Positions 28,727-39,011 of a DNA stretch of 64,000 nt are shown here, piece after piece. The position numbers were made by a program, and so were the translations under genes. The stretch covers positions 144,877 through 208,876 of the forward strand of contig JABURS010000042.1 in the NCBI GenBank assembly GCA_014762505.1, written 5' to 3'. The number at the start of each line of letters is the position of its first letter. The stretch's first letter is position 1. The notes beneath the pieces were generated by a model, which was not told the origin of the DNA, made no database searches, and was given only the letters and a program-made list of their open reading frames with translations. Source of the DNA: Chromatiales bacterium (GTDB taxonomy: Bacteria; Pseudomonadota; Gammaproteobacteria; SpSt-1174).

Positions 28727-29194
28727 TCACGCGGGTCTCCGCGGCCAGCGCCGCAGCCAGTAACGGGCCTCGAGGATCAGGGCCCGGGCGGCATCGGCAC
28801 TGCAGCCGTCCGGGGCGAAACGGGCGGTCTCCAGCGCGACGAGGAAGTCGCGCCAGCGGGTGACCTGCCCGGCGGGCAGTGCCGACGGGGCGCACTGCAG
28901 GGACAGGCGGGGCAGCCCCAGTCCGAGGCGCAGGGCCTGGGCCAGGTGCAGCGCGACGCCGCGGGGCGGCAGGCGTCCGGCCCGGGCCGCACGCTCGAGG
29001 CGTTGCAGCCGGTGGCGCGCCAGTCCGCGCGGCGAAAACCGCCACCACCAGAGCAGCCAGGCGGTCAGCAGCAGCAGGGCGACCAGCCCCAGCCAGGGCA
29101 GCAGTGACGTAACCGCCAGTGCCTCCGGTGCCGGCAGTTCCACGTCGAGCAGGCCGGCATCCAGCGCCCCGGTCATCCCGCCCGCCGCGCTCAT
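28727..29194 (-). CDS. DUF4381 membrane protein of the moxR operon
   Basis: 155 residues with one TM helix (LLPWLGLVALLLLTAWLLWWWRF, about 31-53) after a short periplasmic N-terminus, and a basic cytosolic helical domain. Length and position match DUF4381 proteins, which occur between DUF58 and VWA genes. Overlaps the DUF58 gene by 4 bases (ATGA). Function unknown. Confidence 0.75.
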   Translation of the reverse strand: MSAAGGMTGALDAGLLDVELPAPEALAVTSLLPWLGLVALLLLTAWLLWWWRFSPRGLARHRLQRLERAARAGRLPPRGVALHLAQALRLGLGLPRLSLQCAPSALPAGQVTRWRDFLVALETARFAPDGCSADAARALILEARYWLRRWPRRPA

Positions 29195-30186
29195 GGCAGG
29201 ACCAGCTCCCGCTCGACGGCCTCGCAATCCGCCATCAGGCGCCGGCAGGGGATGCCGGCCGCGCGCAGTACGGCCTCGCGATCGGCCAGGCAGGCCTCGG
29301 CGGCCCGGGCATAGTCGGCGGTCACGGCCGTATCGTCGGTGTTCACGTAACGGGCCGCCTGGCCGGCCGCGGGCGCGAGCCACAGCGGCCCCACGGCAGG
29401 CAGGCCCTGCTCCGCCGCATCGACGATATGCACGGCCTGCACGGCATGGGCCCGGGCCAGGGCCAGCAGCGTCGGCGTGAGCGTGGTGTCCAGGTCGGCA
29501 AAGTCGCTGATGAGATAGATCCGCGTACCGCGGGGCAGGCTCGCACGCAGCAGGTCCAGCGGCCCGGCCAGGCCCGGCTCGGTCCCCTGCGCGGACGCAG
29601 GAGACGGCGGCGGACATGGCGCGGCGGCGGCCTGCGCCAGGCCGTGGGCGCCCGCCTCGCCCCGGAGGTCGCGCAGCCAGCGCGGCCGGGTCTCCAGCAT
29701 CACGCCACCGATGGCCATCTGCGCCTGCGCCGCGGCAAAGGCGATCAGCGTCGCGGCGCGCGCGGCCTGGGCGGCCTTGAGACGCCGGCGCGTGCCAAAA
29801 CGCATACCCGCGCGCCGGTCCACCAGCAGGAACACGCCGGGGCGACGTTCCTCGCGAAAGACCTTCACGAAATGCTCGCCGGTGCGCGCCAGCAGGCGCC
29901 AGTTCATGAAACGGGGTTCGTCACCGTGCTGGAAGGGCCGGCTCTCCTCGTAGTCGAGGCCGGCACCGAGGTGGCGGGCCGGGCTGTCGCCGTGCAGCGG
30001 GTAGTCCACCTCGCGCGGGCCCGCGATGCCCTTCCCCGTGGCCGCCCGGCGGGCCAGCGCCTGAAGGGCGGCCTCGTCCAGCAGCGGCGCGAGTGTCGCC
30101 GCGGCCGGGCGAGCCCGTCCGTGACGCCAGGCCGTGACGGCCTGCCGCCAGCCCCTCATGCCCTGTATGCCCCTGGTCAGGACCAT
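29191..30186 (-). CDS. DUF58 protein of the moxR operon
   Basis: 331 residues. The signature GPREVDYPLHGDSPARHLGAGLDYEESRPFQHGDEPRFMNWRLLARTG (in pieces, about 54-105) is the DUF58 core, and a degenerate VWA fold follows. There is no TM segment, so it is cytosolic. It starts 3 bases after the moxR stop. Partner of MoxR ATPases in several bacteria; the exact role is not known. Confidence 0.88.
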   Translation of the reverse strand: MVLTRGIQGMRGWRQAVTAWRHGRARPAAATLAPLLDEAALQALARRAATGKGIAGPREVDYPLHGDSPARHLGAGLDYEESRPFQHGDEPRFMNWRLLARTGEHFVKVFREERRPGVFLLVDRRAGMRFGTRRRLKAAQAARAATLIAFAAAQAQMAIGGVMLETRPRWLRDLRGEAGAHGLAQAAAAPCPPPSPASAQGTEPGLAGPLDLLRASLPRGTRIYLISDFADLDTTLTPTLLALARAHAVQAVHIVDAAEQGLPAVGPLWLAPAAGQAARYVNTDDTAVTADYARAAEACLADREAVLRAAGIPCRRLMADCEAVERELVLP

Positions 30187-30188
30187 CG

Positions 30189-31151
30189 TCAGGGGGCCGG
30201 CACGCTGTCCAGGATGCGCCGTACCATGGCATCGACGCTCACCTGGGCGGCGGCCGCCGCGTAGCCCGGCACCAGGCGATGGCGCAACACGTCCGGGGCC
30301 ACCTCGAGCACGTCGTCGGGGGTGACGTAATCGCGCTCGCGCAGATAGGCCAGGGCACTGGCGGCGCGCAGCAGGGCGATGGAGGCGCGCGGCGAGGCGC
30401 CGGCCACCAGGAACCCGGACCAGTCGGGGTCGATCTCGCCCAGGCGCCGGGTCGCCCCCACCAGTGCCACCACATAGCGCTCGATCACGTCCTCGACATG
30501 CACCTCGGCCACCTCGCGGCGCGCGGCCAGCACGGTACCGGGCTTGAGCGTCGACTCGAAGTCATCGGGATCGCTGCCGTAGTGGCGCCCGCGATCGCGA
30601 CGCAGGATCTCCAGCTCCTCCTCGGCCGTCGGGTAGTCCAGCACCGTATGCAGCAGGAAGCGGTCGAGCTGCGCCTCGGGCAGCGGATAGGTACCGCTCT
30701 GCTCCAGCGGATTCTGTGTGGCCATGACCACGAACAGATCGGGCAGCCGGCGCGTGGTGCCACCCACCGTCACCTGGTGTTCGGCCATGGCCTCGAGCAG
30801 TGCCGACTGCACCTTCGGCGGGGCGCGGTTGATCTCGTCGGCGAGCACGATCTCGTGGAACAACGGCCCCGGCACGAAGCGGAACGCGCCCTCGCGCGGG
30901 TCGAAGACGTCGCTGCCCGTGAGGTCGCCCGGCATCAGGTCGGGGGTGAACTGGATGCGCTGGAAGCTGGCATGCACGCCGCTGGCCAGCGTGTTCACCG
31001 CCGTGGTCTTGGCCAGCCCGGGCGGCCCTTCCAGCAGCAGGTGCCCGCCCGTGAGCAGGCAGATCATCAGCCGGTCGAGCAGCCGGGGCTGGCCGACGAT
31101 GACCTGTTCGAGATGACGGCGCAGGGCGCGAAAGGCCTCCTGGTTATGCAT
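30189..31151 (-). CDS. MoxR-family AAA+ ATPase
   Basis: 320 residues. Walker A LLLEGPPGLAKTT, Walker B VLADEINRAPPK, sensor 1 VMATQNPLEQSGTYPLPEAQLDRF and an arginine-rich lid (PRASIALLRAASALA). MoxR proteins act as chaperone-like ATPases on VWA-domain partners, which are encoded here in the same operon. Start at the ATG with GGAG in front; an upstream extension of the frame has no homology. Confidence 0.92.
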   Translation of the reverse strand: MHNQEAFRALRRHLEQVIVGQPRLLDRLMICLLTGGHLLLEGPPGLAKTTAVNTLASGVHASFQRIQFTPDLMPGDLTGSDVFDPREGAFRFVPGPLFHEIVLADEINRAPPKVQSALLEAMAEHQVTVGGTTRRLPDLFVVMATQNPLEQSGTYPLPEAQLDRFLLHTVLDYPTAEEELEILRRDRGRHYGSDPDDFESTLKPGTVLAARREVAEVHVEDVIERYVVALVGATRRLGEIDPDWSGFLVAGASPRASIALLRAASALAYLRERDYVTPDDVLEVAPDVLRHRLVPGYAAAAAQVSVDAMVRRILDSVPAP

Positions 31152-31227
31152 GCTCACTCCGAGAGTCGGTTGGACGTTGGTCGTAGGGATGCCGGCCCTT
31201 ACCGGAACATTCCCCGTGGGGGTGCCA

Positions 31228-31887
31228 TCACTCAGCCTCCACCGGCATACCGGCGGCCTTCCACTCGGGGAAGCCATCCTGCAGCCGGCGGGCCTTGAGC
31301 CCCTTGCCGCGCAGGCGTTCCACCGCCTCGAAGGCCAGCACGCAGTGCGGCCCCCGGCAGTAGGCCACCACCTCGCCGCTGTCGCGCAGCTCGTCGAGAT
31401 GCTGTTCCAGTTCCGCCAGCGGGATGTTCACGGCCCCGGGCAGATGCCCGGCGGCGTATTCCTCCGAGGGGCGCACGTCGAGCACGGTGACCTCGCCCTG
31501 GCGCACGCGCTCCAGCAGCTCGGCCACCGGCATGGGTTCCAGCGCGTCCTTCACCGTGAGGTAGGTGTCCACCAGCACCTTCACGTCGGCCAGATGACGC
31601 TCGGCGACGCCGCGCACGCACTGCAGCAACTGCACCACGTCATCGCTGGTGAGCCGGTAATACACGTGCAGCCCCTGCTTGCGCGAGGTCACCAGCCCCA
31701 CCTGGCGCAGCTGCTGCAGGTGCTGGGAGGTGTTGCGGACGGACAGCCCGGAGACCCGCGCGAGATCCTCCACGTTGCGCTCGCCCTGGGCGAGGAACTC
31801 CAGCAGCTCCAGCCGGTGGCCGTTGCCCAGGGCCTTGGCCACGCGGGCGAACTGGGCGAAGAGGTCTTTCTTGAAATTGCCTGCCAT
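31228..31887 (-). CDS. ArsR-type regulator fused to a rhodanese domain
   Basis: 219 residues. Residues 10-95 form a winged HTH (ARVSGLSVRNTSQHLQQLRQVGLVTSRKQGLHVYYRL). A helical linker leads to a rhodanese domain (130-215) with active-site Cys177 in CRGPHC, Cys182 following. The HTH half has a single cysteine (Cys90), so a classical metal site is unlikely. Rhodanese domains carry persulfides, so the protein probably senses sulfur or a thiophilic group. It is divergent from the sterol-desaturase/VTT-rhodanese/DsrE/arsenosugar genes, with a 9-bp inverted repeat in between. Confidence 0.85.
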   Translation of the reverse strand: MAGNFKKDLFAQFARVAKALGNGHRLELLEFLAQGERNVEDLARVSGLSVRNTSQHLQQLRQVGLVTSRKQGLHVYYRLTSDDVVQLLQCVRGVAERHLADVKVLVDTYLTVKDALEPMPVAELLERVRQGEVTVLDVRPSEEYAAGHLPGAVNIPLAELEQHLDELRDSGEVVAYCRGPHCVLAFEAVERLRGKGLKARRLQDGFPEWKAAGMPVEAE

Positions 31888-31902
31888 GTGTCATCTCCGA
31901 TG

Positions 31903-31928
31903 ACTATTCCACTAATCTATGGAATAGT
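31903..31928. promoter_or_regulatory. Probable operator of the ArsR-rhodanese regulator
   Basis: Perfect 9-bp inverted repeat ACTATTCCA-N8-TGGAATAGT in the divergent gap, 16 bases from the regulator's start codon. A plus-strand promoter TTCCAC-N17-TATCTT overlaps it. Binding would repress both directions. Confidence 0.6.
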
Positions 31929-32015
31929 GTATCTTCATTTTGCGTCTTGGCCAACATCGGCATGGATCAACATCCCCGTCACCGGGGCTCACGACGAATA
32001 GAGGGTACCCGAACC

Positions 32016-32876
32016 ATGAGCTTCGAGAGCTTCATCAGCCAGTATGAGCCGGTCATCCGCCTGTCGGCCTTCTTCGGCATCTTCGCCCTCATGGCCCTGT
32101 GGGAGGTCCTCGCCCCGCGCCGCCAGCTTACCACCGCCAAGTGGGTGCGCTGGGGCAGCAACATCGGCCTGGTGTTCCTGAACACCTTCCTGCTGCGCCT
32201 GGCCTTTCCCGCCGCGGCGGTGGGCGTGGCACTGCTGGCCCAGGAGCGGGGCTGGGGCCTGTTCAACGTGGTGGACGTGCCCTTCTGGTTCGCCATCCTC
32301 GCCTCCGTACTGATCATGGACTTCATCATCTGGCTGCAGCACGTGATGGTGCACGCGATCCCTGTACTGTGGCGCATCCACCGCATGCACCACGCGGATC
32401 TCGACTTCGACGTGACCACGGGCTCGCGCTTCCACCCCCTGGAGATCTTCCTCTCCATGGGCATCAAGTTCGCGACCATCGTCCTGCTGGGCCCGCCCGT
32501 GGTGGCGGTGGTGATCTTCGAGGTGATTCTCAACGCCACCTCCATGTTCAACCACGGCAACGTGCGCCTGCCACTGGGGCTGGACCGCGTGCTGCGCCTG
32601 TTCATCGTCACCCCGGACATGCACCGCGTGCACCATTCCATCGAGGACGACGAGACCAACAGCAACTTCGGTTTTGCCCTCTCGCTCTGGGACCGGCTCT
32701 TCGGCACCTACCGCGCCCAGCCGCGCGCCGGACACCAGGGCATGGCCATCGGCATCCGCGACATGCGCGATGCCAGGCGCTGCGCCTGGCTGCCCGGGAT
32801 GCTGGCCATCCCCTTTGTCGGCAAGGTGACGGGCTACGCCATCAACCGCCGCCAGTGGGAGGACGCCAGTGAGTAA
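32016..32876 (+). CDS. Sterol-desaturase/fatty-acid-hydroxylase-superfamily membrane protein
   Basis: 286 residues. Four to five TM helices carry the histidine clusters of the superfamily: HVMVH, HRMHH (IHRMHHADLDFD) and, near the end, HRVHH (DMHRVHHSIEDDETNSNFGF). These bind a di-iron centre that hydroxylates or desaturates lipids. The substrate is unknown; sterol or hopanoid-related lipids are possible. GAGGG precedes the ATG by about ten bases. First gene divergent from the ArsR-rhodanese regulator; it overlaps the next gene by 8 bases. Confidence 0.85.
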   Translation: MSFESFISQYEPVIRLSAFFGIFALMALWEVLAPRRQLTTAKWVRWGSNIGLVFLNTFLLRLAFPAAAVGVALLAQERGWGLFNVVDVPFWFAILASVLIMDFIIWLQHVMVHAIPVLWRIHRMHHADLDFDVTTGSRFHPLEIFLSMGIKFATIVLLGPPVVAVVIFEVILNATSMFNHGNVRLPLGLDRVLRLFIVTPDMHRVHHSIEDDETNSNFGFALSLWDRLFGTYRAQPRAGHQGMAIGIRDMRDARRCAWLPGMLAIPFVGKVTGYAINRRQWEDASE

Positions 32877-33834
32877 GCAGCTGACACGCATCGCCCTGGT
32901 GCTGGTGCTGGTCGCCGGCATCACCCTGGCCATCGTCTACCGCGATGCCTTCGATGCGGCCGCGCTCGAGGCGTGGGTGGACAACGCCGGGGCCGCCGGC
33001 CCCGTTGCCTTCGTGCTGATCTATGCACTGGCCACCGTGCTGTTCCTGCCGGGCTCCGTGCTGACCCTGGCCGGCGGGGCCCTGTTCGGCCCCGTGCTCG
33101 GCACCGTGCTCAACCTCACCGGTGCCACGCTGGGCGCGGCCCTGGCCTTCCTGGTCTCGCGTCACCTCGCCTCGGACTGGGTGGCCCGCAGGACCGGCGG
33201 CCGGCTGAAGCAGCTCACCCAGGGCGTGGAGTCCGAGGGCTGGCGCTTCGTCGCATTCGTACGCCTGGTGCCGCTGTTTCCCTTCAACCTGCTGAACTAC
33301 GCCCTGGGGCTCACGCGCATCCCCTTCTGGCACTACGTGATCGCCTCTGCGGTCTGCATGCTGCCGGGCGCCATCGCCTATACCTATCTGGGCTACGCGG
33401 GCCGCGAGGCCATCGCCGGGGGCGAGTCGCTGATCCAGAAGATCCTGCTCGGCATCGCCCTGCTCGCCGCCGTCGCCTTCCTGCCCCGACTGGTCGCGCG
33501 CCTGCGTCGCGGCCCCATGCTCGACATCGCCGCACTCAGGGCACGGCTGGATGCCGGCGAGGACGTGCTGGTGCTGGATGTGCGCACGCCCGAGGAATTC
33601 ACCGGCGAGCTCGGCCACATCGCGGGTGCCCGCAACCTGCCGCTGGACGCCGTGGCTGGGCGCAGCGAGGAGCTGAGCGAATGGCAGGAGCGCCCCGTCC
33701 TGCTCGTCTGCCGCACCGACAGGCGCTCGGCCAGAGCCGCACAGATCCTCGCACGCAGGGGCTTTGCCGACCTGCACGTGGTGGCCGGCGGCATGGAGGC
33801 CTGGAATGCGGCGGGGCTGCCGGTCGAACGCTAG
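32869..33834 (+). CDS. VTT-domain (DedA/TVP38-like) membrane protein fused to rhodanese
   Basis: 321 residues, GTG start preceded by GGGAGG. Residues 1-205 hold about six TM helices of the VTT family, with the FLPGSVLTLAGGALFG and FVRLVPLFPFNLLNYALG re-entrant motifs. Residues 215-318 are a cytosolic rhodanese domain with active-site Cys in LVCRTDRRS. VTT proteins move lipids or small solutes; the fusion suggests transport or sensing tied to sulfane sulfur. Same operon as a DsrE-like protein and the arsenosugar genes. Confidence 0.85.
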   Translation: MSKQLTRIALVLVLVAGITLAIVYRDAFDAAALEAWVDNAGAAGPVAFVLIYALATVLFLPGSVLTLAGGALFGPVLGTVLNLTGATLGAALAFLVSRHLASDWVARRTGGRLKQLTQGVESEGWRFVAFVRLVPLFPFNLLNYALGLTRIPFWHYVIASAVCMLPGAIAYTYLGYAGREAIAGGESLIQKILLGIALLAAVAFLPRLVARLRRGPMLDIAALRARLDAGEDVLVLDVRTPEEFTGELGHIAGARNLPLDAVAGRSEELSEWQERPVLLVCRTDRRSARAAQILARRGFADLHVVAGGMEAWNAAGLPVER

Positions 33835-33855
33835 TCTTCACCGAGGAGGTATGAC

Positions 33856-34206
33856 ATGAAACGCGCACTCATCATCCTGAACGATCCGCCCTATGGCACC
33901 GAGCGCAGCTTCAACGGCCTGCGCATGGCCAAGGCCCTGCAAAAACAGGCCGAGGACGGCGTCGACGTCTTTCTCATGGCCGACTCGGTGGGCTGCGCGC
34001 GTGCCGGGCAGAAGATCCCGCAGGGCTATTACAACCTGGAGCTGATGCTCAGGGCCGTGCTGCGCAAGGGCCGTGTGCTGCTCTGCGGCACCTGCATGGA
34101 CGCGCGCGGTCTCAGGGACGAGGACCTGGTCGAGGGTGCCGAACGCTCCACCATGGACGAACTCGGGGAACTCACCGCCGCGGCCGACAAGGTCCTGATC
34201 TTCTGA
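33856..34206 (+). CDS. DsrE-like small sulfur-relay-type protein
   Basis: 116 residues, alpha/beta fold typical of DsrE/YchN proteins: RALIILNDPPYGTERSFNGLRMAKAL at the start, then DVFLMADSVGCARAGQK and RVLLCGTCMDARGL. Cysteines at GCARAG and CGTC are candidate persulfide carriers. GAGGAGGT lies seven bases before the ATG. Follows the VTT-rhodanese gene by 21 bases. Confidence 0.85.
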   Translation: MKRALIILNDPPYGTERSFNGLRMAKALQKQAEDGVDVFLMADSVGCARAGQKIPQGYYNLELMLRAVLRKGRVLLCGTCMDARGLRDEDLVEGAERSTMDELGELTAAADKVLIF

Positions 34207-34222
34207 TCACGGTAAGCTAGGA

Positions 34223-34256
34223 TGCCCCGGTCGGAGTGCAGGCTTCGACCGGGGCA
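34223..34256 (+). terminator. Hairpin between the DsrE-like gene and arsS
   Basis: An 11-bp stem TGCCCCGGTCG/CGACCGGGGCA with a 12-base loop, without a T run. It could attenuate, end by Rho, or protect the upstream mRNA. Confidence 0.45.
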
Positions 34257-34282
34257 CCACCCGCAGGACAGGACAACCGGAC

Positions 34283-35245
34283 ATGCACGCCACACTGCCA
34301 TTACTCAAAGACACCGACTTCCCCGCCATCCGTCGCGGACGGCTCACCACGCTGCAGGTCAACCTGGGCTATCGCTGCAACCAGAGCTGCCTGCACTGCC
34401 ACGTGAACGCCGGACCGAACCGCAAGGAGATGATGTCGGCCGGGACCATCGACACCGTGGTCGAGTTTCTTCGGGCCGGCAACATCGAGACCCTGGACCT
34501 CACCGGCGGCGCACCCGAACTCAATCCGCATTTTCGCGATCTCGTCACCCGTGCCCGCGCGCTCGGCGTGCACGTCATGGATCGCTGCAACCTCACCGTC
34601 CTGCATGAACCCGGGCAGGACGACCTGGCCGGGTTCCTCGCCGACAACCGGGTGGAGGTCATCGCCTCCCTGCCCTGTTACCTCGAGGACAACGTCGACG
34701 GCCAGCGCGGCAAGGGCGTCTACCAGGGCAGCATCGAGGGGCTTCAGAAACTGAATGCACTCGGCTACGGCCAGGCCGGCAGCGGGCTCGCGCTCAACCT
34801 CGTGTACAACCCGACCGGCCCGTTCCTGCCGCCCCCGCAGGCGCAGCTCGAGGCCGACTACAAGCGTGAACTGGATACGCGCTTCGGCATCGTCTTCAAC
34901 CGGCTCTTCACGCTCACCAACCTGCCCATCGAGCGTTTCGGCAGCACGCTCGTGAGCAAGGGCCAGTTCGAGGACTACATGCGGCTGCTGCGCGAGGCCT
35001 ACCGCGCGGAGAACCTCGACGCGGTCATGTGCCGCTCGCTCTTGAGCGTGGACTGGCAGGGTTACGTCTACGACTGCGACTTCAACCAGATGCTCGGCCT
35101 GCCGCTGCGCATCGGGGGCAAGCCCCGGCCGCAACTCGCCGACCTCCTCGGCCGCGACCTCGATGGCAACCCGATCGTGATCGCCGACCACTGCTACGGC
35201 TGCACCGCCGGCCAGGGTTCATCCTGCGGCGGGGCGTTGAGCTAG
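34283..35245 (+). CDS. arsS: Arsenosugar biosynthesis radical SAM protein ArsS
   Basis: 320 residues. The radical SAM cluster motif CNQSCLHC (Cys32, Cys36, Cys39) follows LQVNLGYR. LTGGAPELNPHF and the SPASM-like C-terminal cysteines CYGCTAGQGSSCGG are features of the ArsS family, in which radical SAM chemistry attaches the adenosyl group to methylated arsenic. It is followed, after a 390-base repeat-bearing gap, by ArsM and two sugar enzymes of the same pathway. Confidence 0.9.
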   Translation: MHATLPLLKDTDFPAIRRGRLTTLQVNLGYRCNQSCLHCHVNAGPNRKEMMSAGTIDTVVEFLRAGNIETLDLTGGAPELNPHFRDLVTRARALGVHVMDRCNLTVLHEPGQDDLAGFLADNRVEVIASLPCYLEDNVDGQRGKGVYQGSIEGLQKLNALGYGQAGSGLALNLVYNPTGPFLPPPQAQLEADYKRELDTRFGIVFNRLFTLTNLPIERFGSTLVSKGQFEDYMRLLREAYRAENLDAVMCRSLLSVDWQGYVYDCDFNQMLGLPLRIGGKPRPQLADLLGRDLDGNPIVIADHCYGCTAGQGSSCGGALS

Positions 35246-35252
35246 GGTTTTT

Positions 35253-35306
35253 GCCACAGAGGTCACAGAGGTTATTCGAGCGGTTTTACTCTGAGCCCTC
35301 TGTGGC
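35253..35306. repeat. Short CACAGAG-family palindrome
   Basis: GCCACAGAGGTCACAGAGG at the left and CTCTGAGCCCTCTGTGGC at the right with about 18 bases between. Eight bases after the arsS stop, so the transcript end of arsS could fold on it. Confidence 0.8.
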
Positions 35307-35338
35307 GTACGGAATTCGTGTTCAACACGTTCATGTTC

Positions 35339-35445
35339 GTCATCCCTGCGGAGGCAGGGATCCAGGAACACCGAGGCCGATAACCTTCGGAGGCCGTACT
35401 GGCACCTTGTCGCTGATACTGGATTCCCGCCTTCGCGGGAATGAC
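35339..35445. repeat. Inverted doublet of GTCATYCCYGC...GGAT REP-like repeats
   Basis: GTCATCCCTGCGGAGGCAGG(GATCCAG) at the left and CTGGATTCCCGCCTTCGCGG(GAATGAC) at the right are inverted copies enclosing about 53 bases. Each copy is a hairpin of its own. This resembles REP doublets (REPINs) or a small MITE. A third single copy is at 53470. Confidence 0.8.
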
Positions 35446-35635
35446 GAGTTGAGAGAGCCGGAATGACAAGTCAAGAGAGCGAGGACGACGGCTTGAGAGC
35501 GTGGGGATGACGACATCAGCCCCGCGGTAACAATGACTTCAGCGGCGCTGACGATACGCTGAAACATTCGGCCGAACGATTTCAGCCGGCCAAAAACGAA
35601 CTATTGCAAACAAAGAACTATTGCAGGAGACACCG

Positions 35636-36757
35636 ATGGACGTTCGCCAATCCGTACTCGACCGCTATTCCGAAGGCGCGCAACAGCGCGTAGAGGCGCT
35701 GTGCTGTCCGGTGGACTACGACGCCCGCCTGCTCGAGGCGATTCCGGCCGAGATACTGGAACGCGACTACGGCTGCGGCGATCCCTCGCGTTACGTGCGC
35801 GAGGGCGACACCGTGCTCGACCTCGGCTCGGGCGGCGGCAAGATCTGCTACATGGCCGCGCAGCTCGTCGGCCCCGAGGGCCTTGTCATCGGCGTGGACA
35901 TGAACGAGGACATGCTCGACCTCGCCCGCCGCCACCAGGCGGAGATGGCCGAGAAGCTCGGCGGTGACCGCGTCGACTTTCGCAAGGGCTACATCCAGGA
36001 CCTGGCGCTGGACGTCGCCGCGATGGAGGCCTTTCTCGCCGGACAGCCGGTGACCGATGCGGCAGGCTACACCCGCCTGCACGACTGGCAGGCCACGCAG
36101 CGCCGTGAGAAACCGCTGATCCCCGATGCCTCGGTGGATCTGGTCATCTCCAACTGCGTGCTCAACCTGGTGCCCGACGCCGACAAGAACCAGCTGGTGC
36201 GCGAGGTCTTCCGCGTGCTCAGGCCCGGCGGGCGCGTGGCCATCTCGGACATCGTCAGCGACGAGCCGGTCCCCGAGCACCTGAAGAACGACCCGGCGCT
36301 GTGGAGCGGCTGTATCTCCGGCGCCTTCCAGGAAGAGACGTTCCTCCAGGTCTTCCGCGAGGCCGGCTTCGTCGCCGTGGCCTACGACAAGTGGGACGCC
36401 GCACCCTGGCAGGTGATCGAGGGCATCGAGTTCCGCTCGGTCACGCTCACCGCCACGAAGCCCGAGGCCACCGCCTGCCTGGACTACGGCCATGCCGTGA
36501 TGTACCGCGGTCCGTTTTCACAGGTGCACGACGACGAGGGCCACGTCTACCCGCGCGGCGCGCGCATCGCCGTGTGCGAGCGCAGCTACCGGCTCCTCAC
36601 CGAGGGCCCCTATGCCGATCAGTTCATCGGTTTTGCACCGCGCAACCCGGGCGAGCCGCGCACGTTCTGCGCACCGGCCGGCACCCGCCGTCCGGCCGCC
36701 GAGACCAAGAGCCCCCTCGCGCCCACCTGCGACAGCGAGGGCAGCTGCTGTTGCTGA
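35636..36757 (+). CDS. arsM: Arsenite S-adenosylmethyltransferase ArsM
   Basis: 373 residues. SAM-binding motif LDLGSGGG (61-68). The three catalytic cysteines of ArsM are all present: Cys71 (GGKICY), Cys174 (ISNCVLNLVPD) and Cys226 (SGCISGAF). These bind As(III) during stepwise methylation. After residue 280 comes a C-terminal domain of about 90 residues ending in SCCC, an extra possible arsenic-binding tail. The start was chosen at the ATG with AGGAGA in front rather than the TTG 15 bases earlier. Its end overlaps the next gene. Product feeds ArsS-dependent arsenosugar synthesis. Confidence 0.9.
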   Translation: MDVRQSVLDRYSEGAQQRVEALCCPVDYDARLLEAIPAEILERDYGCGDPSRYVREGDTVLDLGSGGGKICYMAAQLVGPEGLVIGVDMNEDMLDLARRHQAEMAEKLGGDRVDFRKGYIQDLALDVAAMEAFLAGQPVTDAAGYTRLHDWQATQRREKPLIPDASVDLVISNCVLNLVPDADKNQLVREVFRVLRPGGRVAISDIVSDEPVPEHLKNDPALWSGCISGAFQEETFLQVFREAGFVAVAYDKWDAAPWQVIEGIEFRSVTLTATKPEATACLDYGHAVMYRGPFSQVHDDEGHVYPRGARIAVCERSYRLLTEGPYADQFIGFAPRNPGEPRTFCAPAGTRRPAAETKSPLAPTCDSEGSCCC

Positions 36758-37434
36758 CCGTCTCGGTCATCGTGCCGGCGCTCAACGAGGCGGCGACCAT
36801 CGCGGCCACACTCGCGCCGCTGCAGGCCGTGCGTACGGCCGGTCACGAGATCATCGTGGTCGACGGTGGCAGCACGGACGCCACTGTCGACCGTGCCCGT
36901 GCGCTGGCCGACCGGGTGATCGCCAGTCCGCCCGGCCGGGCCAGGCAGATGAACGCGGGGGCAGGCATCGCCACCGGCGACGTCCTGTGGTTCCTGCATG
37001 CCGACACCCTCGCCCCTGCCGAGGCGATCGATGGCATCGGCGATGCACTTGCCGACGGCCGCCGCTGCTGGGGCCGCTTCGACGTGCGCCTGTCCGGCAA
37101 TCACTGGCCGTTTCGCCTCATCGAGCGCGCCATGAACCTGCGCTCCTGCCTCACGCGCATCGCCACCGGCGACCAGGGCATCTTCGTCACGCGCGAGGCC
37201 TTCGCGGCGGTCGGCGGCTATGCCGACATCCCGCTGATGGAAGACATCGCGCTGAGCAGGCGCCTGCGAAAACACACGCCACCGGCCTGCCTGAAGTCAC
37301 GGCTCGTCACCTCCAGCCGCCGCTGGGAACGCAACGGCATCCTGCGCACCGTGCTCCTCATGTGGCGCCTGCGGCTGGCCTACTTCCTCGGCGCCGCTCC
37401 CGACGCCCTGGCCGAGCGCTACCGTCGTGGCTGA
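36751..37434 (+). CDS. Arsenosugar-type glycosyltransferase, TIGR04283 family
   Basis: 227 residues, GT-A fold family 2: TVSVIVPALNEAATI at the N-terminus, IIVVDGGSTD (nucleotide-sugar Asp), WFLHADT as the DxD-like motif, and SCLTRIATGDQGIFVTREAF. The family occurs with ArsS and ArsM in arsenosugar loci. TTG at 36751 was chosen as the start because the later GTG would remove the first beta strand; it overlaps the arsM end by 7 bases. The acceptor is unproven. Confidence 0.82.
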   Translation: MLTVSVIVPALNEAATIAATLAPLQAVRTAGHEIIVVDGGSTDATVDRARALADRVIASPPGRARQMNAGAGIATGDVLWFLHADTLAPAEAIDGIGDALADGRRCWGRFDVRLSGNHWPFRLIERAMNLRSCLTRIATGDQGIFVTREAFAAVGGYADIPLMEDIALSRRLRKHTPPACLKSRLVTSSRRWERNGILRTVLLMWRLRLAYFLGAAPDALAERYRRG

Positions 37435-38065
37435 CAAGCACGATACCGCGGTCATCGTCTTTGCCCGCGCCCCCGTGCCGGGCGCCAGCAAGACGCGCCT
37501 GATACCCGCGCTCGGCGAACGCGGCGCGGCCACCCTGCACGCGCGCATGATCGAGCACAGCATCGAGACGCTGGCCACCGGCACCCACACGCTTCAGCTC
37601 TGGTGCGCCCCGGACACCGGCCACCCGCTCTTCGGTGACCTCGCCAGGCGCCACGAGCTGAAACTGCACACCCAGTGCGGTGATGATCTGGGCGCGCGCA
37701 TGTATCATGCGCTGGACACCGCCCTGCGCGATCACGCCCAGGCCATCATCGTCGGCACCGATTGCCCCGGTATGGCAGCGGCCGATATCGAGGCCGCCGC
37801 GCAGGCACTACAACAGGGTGCGGACGCCGTCCTCGGCCCGGCCGAGGACGGGGGCTACTGGCTGCTCGGACTGCGTGCCATCTCGCCCACGCTCTTCGAC
37901 GACCTGCCCTGGGGTGGCGACGCGATATACGAACAGACACGCGCACGCATCGAGGCCCTGGGCTGGCGCTGCCATGTGCTGCGCACACTGGCCGACGTGG
38001 ACCGTCCGGACGACCTCGTCCACGTACCCGCGAAACTGCTGCAAGACACGAGAGAGAACGCATGA
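37427..38065 (+). CDS. Arsenosugar-type nucleotidyl/glycosyltransferase-like protein, TIGR04282 family
   Basis: 212 residues, GTG start overlapping the previous gene by 8 bases. FARAPVPGASKTRL near the N-terminus and IIVGTDCPGM are the hallmark of this family, related to MobA/CofC-type nucleotidyltransferases. DAVLGPAEDGGYWLLGL follows as substrate-binding loop. It regularly follows the TIGR04283 gene. Its own reaction is not established. ATGA overlap with the next small gene. Confidence 0.82.
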   Translation: MADKHDTAVIVFARAPVPGASKTRLIPALGERGAATLHARMIEHSIETLATGTHTLQLWCAPDTGHPLFGDLARRHELKLHTQCGDDLGARMYHALDTALRDHAQAIIVGTDCPGMAAADIEAAAQALQQGADAVLGPAEDGGYWLLGLRAISPTLFDDLPWGGDAIYEQTRARIEALGWRCHVLRTLADVDRPDDLVHVPAKLLQDTRENA

Positions 38066-38292
38066 ACTGGCTCGACAAACTGCCGCTCGGCATGCTCGTC
38101 ATCATCGCCGCCACCCTGGGCCTTGCGCCCTTCGTGCCGGAACCGCATATCTGGGAAAAGCTCAAGATGCTGGCCGACGGCGCGCTCACGCGCCCCATCG
38201 ACATCTTCGACCTGCTGATGCACGGCGCGCCATGGGTGTTGCTCGGCCTCAAGCTCGGGCGCCTGGCGCAGAAGCAGCTCGCTGCCCGGTAA
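38062..38292 (+). CDS. Small two-helix membrane protein of the arsenosugar cluster
   Basis: 76 residues. TM1 LGMLVIIAATLGLAPFVPEP and TM2 near LLMHGAPWVLLGLKLGR, with PIDIFDL between. ATGA overlap with the preceding gene shows co-translation. I do not recognise a defined function. It is too short for a transporter on its own. Confidence 0.75.
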   Translation: MNWLDKLPLGMLVIIAATLGLAPFVPEPHIWEKLKMLADGALTRPIDIFDLLMHGAPWVLLGLKLGRLAQKQLAAR

Positions 38293-38298
38293 GATCGC

Positions 38299-38670
38299 AT
38301 GAACGCGAACACCCCGCGCCTGATCTTCGTCTACAACGCCGACAGCGGCCTGTTCAACACCATGGCCGACATCGGCCACAAGATCTTCTCGCCCGAGACC
38401 TACGCCTGCGAGCTCTGCGCCCTCACCCACGGCTATTTCAGCGAACGACGCGAGTGGCGCACCTTCGTCGAGTCACTGCCGCTGCCCTGCGAGTTCCTGC
38501 ATCGCGATGAATTCCTGCGCGCGCATCCGGACCAGCAGGGGCACCGTTTTCCTGTCGTGCTATACATGGGTGAAAACGGACTGCAGCCCTGCCTCACGCG
38601 AGACGACCTGGCCGACTGCACCGACCTGGCGGCCCTGCAACAGGCCATCCGCCGCTGCCTGCCGGCGTGA
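38299..38670 (+). CDS. Uncharacterized protein with CxxC, arsenosugar cluster
   Basis: 123 residues, no signal or TM. RLIFVYNADSGLFNTMADIGHK, then Cys37/Cys40 in CELCALTHGYFSERREW, and further cysteines at 64, 98, 107 and 120. A thioredoxin-like strand pattern (FPVVLYMGENGL) is possible. The cysteine pairs could bind arsenic or a metal. Six bases after the preceding gene; conserved placement suggests a role in the pathway. Confidence 0.7.
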   Translation: MNANTPRLIFVYNADSGLFNTMADIGHKIFSPETYACELCALTHGYFSERREWRTFVESLPLPCEFLHRDEFLRAHPDQQGHRFPVVLYMGENGLQPCLTRDDLADCTDLAALQQAIRRCLPA

Positions 38671-38732
38671 TGCCGGGCGCGAAGACGACCACCCACGATC
38701 AACCCGCATCAGAGACCACCGGAGCAAACGAC

Positions 38733-39011
38733 ATGCACGCCACTGCCGAACTGCAGGTCATACCGCTGGGTAGCGGTGTCTCGGTGCGTGCGGAGATCCT
38801 GCGCGTGACAGAGGTGCTGAAAGGGTACGAACTGCTGATCGAGACTCATGCCTCGGGCACGAACATCGAAGGCGAGCTGGCGGACATCCTCGCCGCCGTG
38901 GCGAGGGTGCACGAGCTGCTGCATGCCGAGGGCACGGTGCGCCTGGTGAGTTATCTCAAGCTGGAGACGCGCACCGACAAGACGCCCACGCTCGCCGGCA
39001 AGAAGCTCTAG
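38733..39011 (+). CDS. MTH1187/YkoF-type thiamine-binding family protein
   Basis: 92 residues, ferredoxin-like fold: AELQVIPLGSGVSVRAEILRVTEVLKGYELLIE, with HASGTNIEGELADILAAV and a final RTDKTPTLAGK. This matches MTH1187-type proteins, some of which bind thiamine pyrimidine. The start is at the ATG with GGAG nine bases before; an upstream frame extension lacks homology. Last plus-strand gene of the cluster. Confidence 0.78.
   Translation: MHATAELQVIPLGSGVSVRAEILRVTEVLKGYELLIETHASGTNIEGELADILAAVARVHELLHAEGTVRLVSYLKLETRTDKTPTLAGKKL

Follow-up and report, generated by a model that had tools for sequence, protein, structure and literature searches.

An ArsR-rhodanese regulator paired with a conserved operator at a fatty-acid-hydroxylase-superfamily operon: a candidate sulfane-sulfur regulon that in some lineages extends to arsenosugar genes

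Which genes does a regulator of the ArsR type control, and to what signal might it answer, when it carries a rhodanese domain and faces, across a palindrome, genes for a putative lipid hydroxylase, a rhodanese fusion, a DsrE-family protein and arsenosugar synthesis? The question is raised by a 64,000-nucleotide stretch of a Chromatiales bacterium genome (assembly GCA_014762505.1, contig JABURS010000042.1, positions 144,877 to 208,876 of the forward strand), called the window below and numbered from its first letter. The original prediction, made from these letters alone, had seen here one regulon joining sulfur and arsenic. Our answer, which we hold at about 60%, is that the regulator, REG, is a local repressor that is released by sulfane sulfur and controls both itself and the operon beginning with FAH, a gene of the fatty-acid-hydroxylase superfamily. 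Of the single regulon proposed earlier, the sulfur/membrane half (REG, FAH, a VTT-rhodanese fusion and a DsrE-family protein, with a conserved operator) now appears, from genome comparison, well supported as a real, conserved and mostly single-operator local regulon; the arsenic half is weaker, the operator being present at one of 26 ArsS genes situated elsewhere.

Gene order at the locus

Protein families were assigned with Pfam and NCBIfam profiles under their curated cut-offs, which gave the following features:

31228 to 31887, minus strand: REG, an ArsR/SmtB winged helix (HTH_5) plus Rhodanese, with Cys177 and Cys182 in the loop YCRGPHC
31903 to 31928: operator ACTATTCCA-N8-TGGAATAGT, a perfect 9-8-9 palindrome with the core TATTCnA-N8-TnGAATA
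32016 to 32876, plus strand: FAH, PF04116, membrane protein of the fatty-acid-hydroxylase superfamily with an intact His cluster
32869 to 33834, plus strand: VTT-rhodanese, VTT_dom (DedA/TVP38-type, membrane) plus Rhodanese with active-site Cys281
33856 to 34206, plus strand: DsrE-family gene, nearest solved relative E. coli YchN, Cys77 present in 15 of 15 aligned sequences
34220 to 34258, plus strand: RNA hairpin between the DsrE gene and arsS, stem of 15 bp + 2 bp
34283 to 35245, plus strand: arsS, arsenosugar-biosynthesis radical SAM protein, TIGR04167 at 461.6 bits against a cut-off of 300
35636 to 36757, plus strand: ArsM-like arsenite methyltransferase, under the NCBIfam ArsM cut-offs
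36754 to 37434, plus strand: arsenosugar-set glycosyltransferase TIGR04283, passing its cut-off
37427 to 38065, plus strand: arsenosugar-set glycosyltransferase TIGR04282, passing its cut-off

FAH shares 8 nt with VTT-rhodanese, and gaps of 21 nt and 76 nt then separate VTT-rhodanese from the DsrE gene and the DsrE gene from arsS, a spacing as in an operon. Order, strands and domains of the five-gene locus agree with what had been read from the letters, Cys177 does lie in the rhodanese loop of REG, and the palindrome between REG and FAH is exact; new are the extension of the arsenosugar set to 38065 and a second conserved cysteine, Cys182, near Cys177.

Each protein was searched in 369 genomes of the class, the window's own included, at E limits of 1e-35 for REG, FAH and VTT-rhodanese, 1e-12 for DsrE and 1e-60 for ArsS (TIGR04167), and matches were obtained in 96 (REG), 175 (FAH), 91 (VTT-rhodanese), 25 (DsrE) and 183 (ArsS) genomes. 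All linkage counts that involve FAH or ArsS are counts among the matches listed. REG and FAH lie within 3 kb of each other in 54 of the 70 genomes showing both, FAH and VTT-rhodanese in 65 of 75, and REG and DsrE in 17 of 19. The synteny reaches well outside close relatives, as the original prediction required: the 54 genomes carry 38 family labels. They yield 56 REG|FAH loci, two genomes having two loci each, and in these loci, where some contigs are short and gene calling missed some genes (e.g., DsrE in the genus mate's L023), we counted the VTT cluster in 47, ArsS in 20 and DsrE in 15. REG is on the strand of FAH in none of the 52 loci in which it was called, and ArsS is on that strand in 20 of 20. 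The co-occurrence expected of all five genes thus holds for REG, FAH and VTT-rhodanese and, less often, for DsrE; the full block REG|FAH-VTT-rhodanese-DsrE-ArsS occurs in only three of the 369 genomes (the window's own, G001 as its genus mate, and G132, which belongs to another family). Public genomes were also scanned with the REG alignment, the best 80 of 581 loci being named (in part overlapping the 369-genome sample); judged by eye, three of the 80 (L219, L226, L227) have the block. These named loci include those of Candidatus Endoriftia, the Lamellibrachia and Solemya symbionts, Sedimenticola, Candidatus Thiodiazotropha, Sulfuricaulis, Gallionella and Magnetococcales, and 63 of the 80 carry an operator site scoring above 18.

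Several observations at these loci deserve a record of their own. G054, counted among the 54 linked genomes although its REG is broken, has beside FAH a REG interrupted by several stop codons (contig C119, loci L066 and L094) while operator sites persist, a natural loss of the regulator. On the strand of REG in the window, about 73 nt after it with the chosen start codon, lies a MoxR/DUF58 gene pair (29191-31154, minus strand); each gene is found in six of the 56 loci, window counted, and may share the REG transcript in some lineages. Eight of the 56 loci carry, on FAH's strand, a fused NapH-like ferredoxin/GltD-like protein (L102:1964-6518 and similar), and eight carry on that strand multihaem cytochromes (hydrazine-dehydrogenase-like, 202 bits, below the cut-off).

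The operator and its pairing with REG

Within the window the operator core occurs once at up to two mismatches (shuffles: mean 0.10). Across relatives its consensus is TATTCAA-N8-TTGAATA, and a symmetric 26-nt matrix places a site scoring above 12 in 51 of 54 REG|FAH intergenic regions, all except L113, L133 and L141, as against a mean of 0.085 and a maximum of 1 in 200 shuffled sets. The 54 regions leave out L093 and L127, in which REG and FAH are more than 2 kb apart; the former has an operator site at each gene and the latter none above 18. The two arms co-vary, reading TATTCCA/TGGAATA in the window and TATTCTA/TAGAATA in L122. Of 51 regions, 40 have a sigma-70-like hexamer pair that matches at least 9 of 12 positions and faces FAH (after base shuffling, mean 5.8 and maximum 13), and 26 have one that faces REG. 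The commonest position of the FAH-side -10 hexamer, in 22 of 51 regions, begins 6 nt before the operator, so that a repressor bound there would sit on the transcription start.

The matrix was trained on the same regions in which its sites were counted, and sites outside that training set therefore weigh more. Such sites stand in G003 at REG|VTT and, on another contig, at FAH, and in G296 and G290 at FAH. REG and FAH are far apart in G247, each with its own operator; in G185 the operator is upstream of a REG that lies away from FAH; and in G265 it is placed between a ferredoxin/GltD-like gene and REG. Among the 13 examined REG copies (at least 57% identity) without an adjacent FAH, eight carry a site, one of them weak (16.8). 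Of 12 places where FAH was listed apart from REG in genomes with a REG of at least 57% identity, six have the operator (G296, G050, G247, G003, G290, G188); the site in G050 precedes a dsrE fragment and FAH, and the FAH start in G188 is actually beside REG on another contig. The reciprocal test took FAH places (at least 57% identity, among the matches listed) in genomes without a REG match, 20 being examined out of 43: 18 of the 20 have no operator above 15, and the two that do are in G101 (73% complete, site near a contig end) and G342 (85% complete). No operator was found at L029-L033, five loci whose REG relatives are more distant.

Some operators stand where FAH does not, and these bear on what the regulon is for. 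FAH is the most constant neighbour of REG, and its homologues are also present in ArsS operons that lack both REG and rhodanese (in loci selected for their ArsS linkage), which could mean that REG runs a membrane-lipid programme of FAH and a lipid-scramblase-like VTT protein, the sulfur domains reporting a redox cue only and the sulfur genes being passengers. We think this improbable, for the operator is found without FAH beside it between REG and a DsrE-family gene (36% identity) in G178 and at tauE/safE in three genomes: between tauE and REG in G336, before tauE in G085, and in G126 as a second operator 28 nt before tauE.

In the window's own genome a core search returned one exact copy and one place with one mismatch, and with that single exact copy a wide regulon there is unsupported; the genome's three tauE-family genes (over the cut-off) have no operator on their contigs by core search at up to one mismatch. 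The exact core was present in 21 of 30 chosen relatives, in 18 at the module and in three solely elsewhere (G126 and G085, before tauE, and G206, probably a chance match). Off-module exact-core places number six in all among these relatives, and a reversed-pattern control gave four forward matches in the 30 genomes. The off-module exact matches in G349 (C12), G206 (C145) and G155 (C196), with spacers unlike the consensus, we take to be chance. In G138 a second operator-like site (L288:6439-6464, matrix score 24.9) lies inside a TauD-like frame about 690 nt before dsrA; it may have arisen by chance or may tie the operator to the dsr cluster.

Signal and targets

The case for a sulfur signal begins with the cysteines of REG. 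In a survey of 136 distinct sequences (at least 57% identity, near-full-length matches, identical ones taken once), C177 and C182 of the loop CRG[PAT]xC are present in all 136, the next commonest cysteine position being filled in 11; the helix-turn-helix (HTH) domain thus has no conserved cysteine, none of its positions exceeding 11 of 136. Since the only invariant cysteines are in the rhodanese loop and the HTH domain has none, we propose that loop as the sensor and sulfane sulfur as its ligand, and a rhodanese-dithiol sulfane-sulfur sensor is the most likely description of REG as judged from sequence. Eight more distant relatives keep C177 in seven cases and C182 in six. The window's own genome has a second ArsR-rhodanese protein (G000:C29, L030:9285-9938; 50% identity) in which C182 is lost (CRGALS), and an adjoining frame encodes a GEGKCGEGKCGG repeat protein.

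Arsenite-sensing ArsR proteins have a cysteine cluster near the recognition helix, and REG, lacking any conserved HTH cysteine, does not belong with them; we therefore rejected arsenite as a signal sensed by REG, and arsenic sensing is thus unsupported. REG scores above the cut-offs for PF01022 and NF033788 and has PF00581 at residues 122-212; against the BigR model it reaches 47.8 bits where 155 are required. The closest solved HTH domain is that of Mycobacterium bovis Mb0332 (PDB 3gw2, 2kko; 46% identity, 3.5e-21), solved for residues 1-100 only, so that the likeness is one of HTH halves. We take Mb0332 to be the Rv0324 orthologue with a rhodanese domain, and REG, with this HTH and a C-terminal rhodanese, resembles the Rv0324/Mb0332 type to that extent; we know of no tie of Mb0332 to FAH or VTT-rhodanese. 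With SqrR, BigR, SoxR and sHdrR, REG shares the ArsR fold, a position as repressor beside sulfur-handling genes and, as proposed, the sulfane-sulfur signal. In these regulators two conserved cysteines form a tetrasulfide, according to an excerpt of PMC12423496. The sHdrR pair, Cys50 and Cys116, is in the ArsR domain; REG is without it and has two cysteines in the fused rhodanese instead.

The neighbours support the sulfur-linked setting that the original prediction had suggested, the recurring partners being rhodanese, DsrE, TauE/SafE, cysteine-desulfurase-like and SQR-like proteins. The neighbourhoods of relatives contain genes for TauE/SafE, an SQR-like flavoprotein, multihaem cytochromes and a MerA-like oxidoreductase, and also an aminotransferase class V gene, which we read as a cysteine desulfurase. 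The window's DsrE protein matches E. coli YchN (1jx7), likewise of the DsrE family, from end to end, the gene here differing in sitting in an operon with rhodanese fusions, and it fails the equivalog scores of TusD (28.8 vs 89.25 bits) and TusC (17 vs 94.15 bits). VTT-rhodanese has the same two parts as the DedA (COG0586)-rhodanese fusions, and in the window the fusion is tied to a sulfur-type repressor; an excerpt of PMC10127716 notes rhodanese fused to DedA (COG0586) as having an unclear role. FAH passes PF04116 at 98.7 bits with its His cluster (His109, 113, 122, 125, 126, 140, 180, 206 and 207 at 100% and His203 at 98% of 63 sequences), and presumably is a di-iron oxygenase. It belongs to the same superfamily as the ornithine-lipid hydroxylase OlsE (NF052566), of whose cut-off of 475 it falls far short at 83.5 bits. 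Its sequence has no match among solved structures at E up to 0.01, and its structure model (mean predicted local distance difference test, pLDDT, 67.8; no PDB match at E <=0.001) was too poor for use.

Of 40 module genomes that were chosen, 31 have dsrA (one of them below the cut-off), versus 10 of 40 chosen genomes without REG and FAH matches (Fisher p 4.8e-6), and among genomes of at least 2 Mb in 30 of 39 versus 8 of 24 (Fisher p 0.0012), with relatedness uncorrected in both tests. This association, together with targets of the sulfur-transfer and sulfite-export type, speaks against the alternative that the rhodanese cysteines sense general thiol oxidation, forming a disulfide under peroxide, hypochlorite or nitric oxide. 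A plain disulfide could indeed form between two invariant cysteines at a distance of five residues, and genes for MerA-like oxidoreductases and multihaem cytochromes are repeatedly found in the vicinity; on balance we consider such sensing rather unlikely.

Several points weigh against a sulfane-sulfur-released repressor of the FAH operon. The sulfur signal is read from domain identity and neighbours, and since dsrA has no match in the window's own genome, the link is one to sulfur metabolism as a whole. The structure model of REG (predicted template modelling score, pTM, 0.52), whose best Foldseek matches are to the HTH half, SqrR among them, and whose rhodanese matches are lower, says nothing on the switch. 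At the operator, besides the training of the matrix on the regions counted, there is the window's own promoter match, which is weak at 7 of 12, and under stricter scanning no promoter-like site emerged in 31150-38800. G081, with REG and FAH about 2 kb apart, has no site above 18; six of the 12 REG-separate FAH places have no operator (G197, G091, G265, G220 and second copies in G349 and G242); and no site was found at five of the 13 REG copies without an adjacent FAH (G296, G197, G091, G035:C124 and, at a contig end, G050). The last of these would also fit a palindrome belonging to another regulator, beside which REG stands by happenstance; that is very improbable, for the operator tracks REG across genomes and precedes REG even away from FAH (G247, G185).

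Taking REG again as a sulfur-released repressor, we infer the following sequence of events. REG, presumably a homodimer, would also control itself. Bound to TATTCnA-N8-TnGAATA where the FAH operon begins, it would repress FAH, VTT-rhodanese and DsrE, joined in some relatives by tauE/safE. Sulfane sulfur, as polysulfide or a low-molecular-weight persulfide, would be loaded on Cys177 and captured by Cys182 five residues on, and the resulting change would release the DNA. VTT-rhodanese and DsrE might then pass the sulfur on at the membrane, TauE-type proteins might export the oxidised product, and a lipid of the membrane might be modified by FAH. In this genome the same promoter would probably also serve ArsS and the arsenosugar genes. 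That a rhodanese-dithiol repressor in this manner couples a persulfide signal to membrane-lipid hydroxylation and membrane sulfur transfer, extending in some lineages to arsenosugar and possibly arsenolipid synthesis, is a possibility that we put forward tentatively.

The arsenosugar extension

In the window ArsS (the sole copy over the cut-off in its genome) and both glycosyltransferases of the known arsenosugar set (ArsS, ArsM, TIGR04283, TIGR04282) pass their cut-offs, the difference from that set being that it is joined here to a sulfur-type regulon. The ArsM-like protein remains below its three (NF038099 133.9 vs 400, NF040538 359.2 vs 500 and NF008823 199 vs 263 bits). Where a genome has both genes, ArsS is no more than 10 kb from REG in 18 of 61 cases and from FAH in 31 of 104, against a chance expectation below 1% (a 20-kb target in 3 Mb). 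The 20 ArsS-bearing REG|FAH loci carry 14 family labels, and in two of them (G123, G237) ArsS is on the far side of REG. A quick tree of 66 FAH rows requires at least 14 changes of the ArsS label among the REG|FAH loci, so the linkage was made or lost repeatedly; over all 66 rows the label changes 16 times versus a shuffled mean of 22, and is thus somewhat clustered.

Would REG then also sense arsenite and directly control arsenosugar synthesis, as one sulfur-and-arsenic regulon? The recurrent placement of ArsS on FAH's strand (20 of 56 loci, 14 family labels, at least 14 state changes) favours this, as does the linkage of FAH or VTT-rhodanese with ArsS also without REG. We looked upstream, over as much as 10 kb if the contig was long enough, of all 26 places in REG genomes where ArsS was listed away from REG, FAH and VTT-rhodanese, and 25 have no operator above 15; the exception, G092, has one about 87 nt before a putative three-gene run of HEAT-like, MerA-like and ArsS genes. 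Direct control of ArsS everywhere can thus be set aside, and from the one case in 26 it follows that ArsS can join the regulon, usually by position. A regulon of both elements is further opposed by the HTH domain, without the conserved cysteine that an As(III)-sensing ArsR needs, by the rarity of the five-gene block and by the strong hairpin between the DsrE gene and arsS, and we regard it as unlikely. The hairpin (-41.7 kcal/mol over 101 nt, z -3.08) has no U tail, so read-through into arsS may be partial, and it is possibly an attenuator or a processing site; a similar inverted repeat is seen by eye in the genus mate and is not evident by eye in G132. The predicted tie of the arsenosugar genes to the regulator accordingly keeps its recurrence and loses its generality (the full block in 3 of 369 genomes, an operator at 1 of 26 separate ArsS genes), and by its distribution the arsenosugar link is a recurrent, non-obligatory extension of the putative operon.

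Some further features of these regions may be noted. FAH homologues (47-51% identity) are found inside arsenosugar operons, between the two glycosyltransferase genes, in L142, L144 and L158, loci that were chosen for their ArsS linkage and to which no REG was mapped; the tie between FAH and arsenosugar genes may therefore be older. A gene for 123 aa (38299-38670, plus strand), having a CxxC motif and matching no Pfam or NCBIfam family, recurs beside arsenosugar genes and directly beside REG in seven compared loci and in 10 of the 80 named loci, begins in L208 right where REG ends, and may belong to the module as a so far unrecognised member. The window has, in the space from arsS to the arsM-like gene, a repeat-like insert (35320-35475, plus strand), ~30-nt pieces of which match six other places in the genome, and the gap of 390 nt compares with about 130 nt in the genus mate (L023).

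Full-text literature searches (titles and abstract openings) returned no description of this module, which is weak evidence given their thin coverage of subscription journals. Its unusual features are the proposed rhodanese sensor and the proposed lipid-hydroxylase target. The pair of regulator and operator is precise enough to predict which genes respond in dozens of mostly uncultured bacteria, tubeworm and clam symbionts among them, and many of the carriers are sulfur oxidisers. It suggests that sulfur can be sensed in a way other than that of the SqrR/BigR type, and that a lipid hydroxylase and a VTT-rhodanese fusion take part in the response to sulfur; it also gives a testable setting for the arsenosugar genes that sometimes adjoin sulfur-handling genes. 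If the persulfide signal does switch on lipid hydroxylation, membrane lipid chemistry would be part of the reactive-sulfur response in many sulfur-oxidising bacteria.

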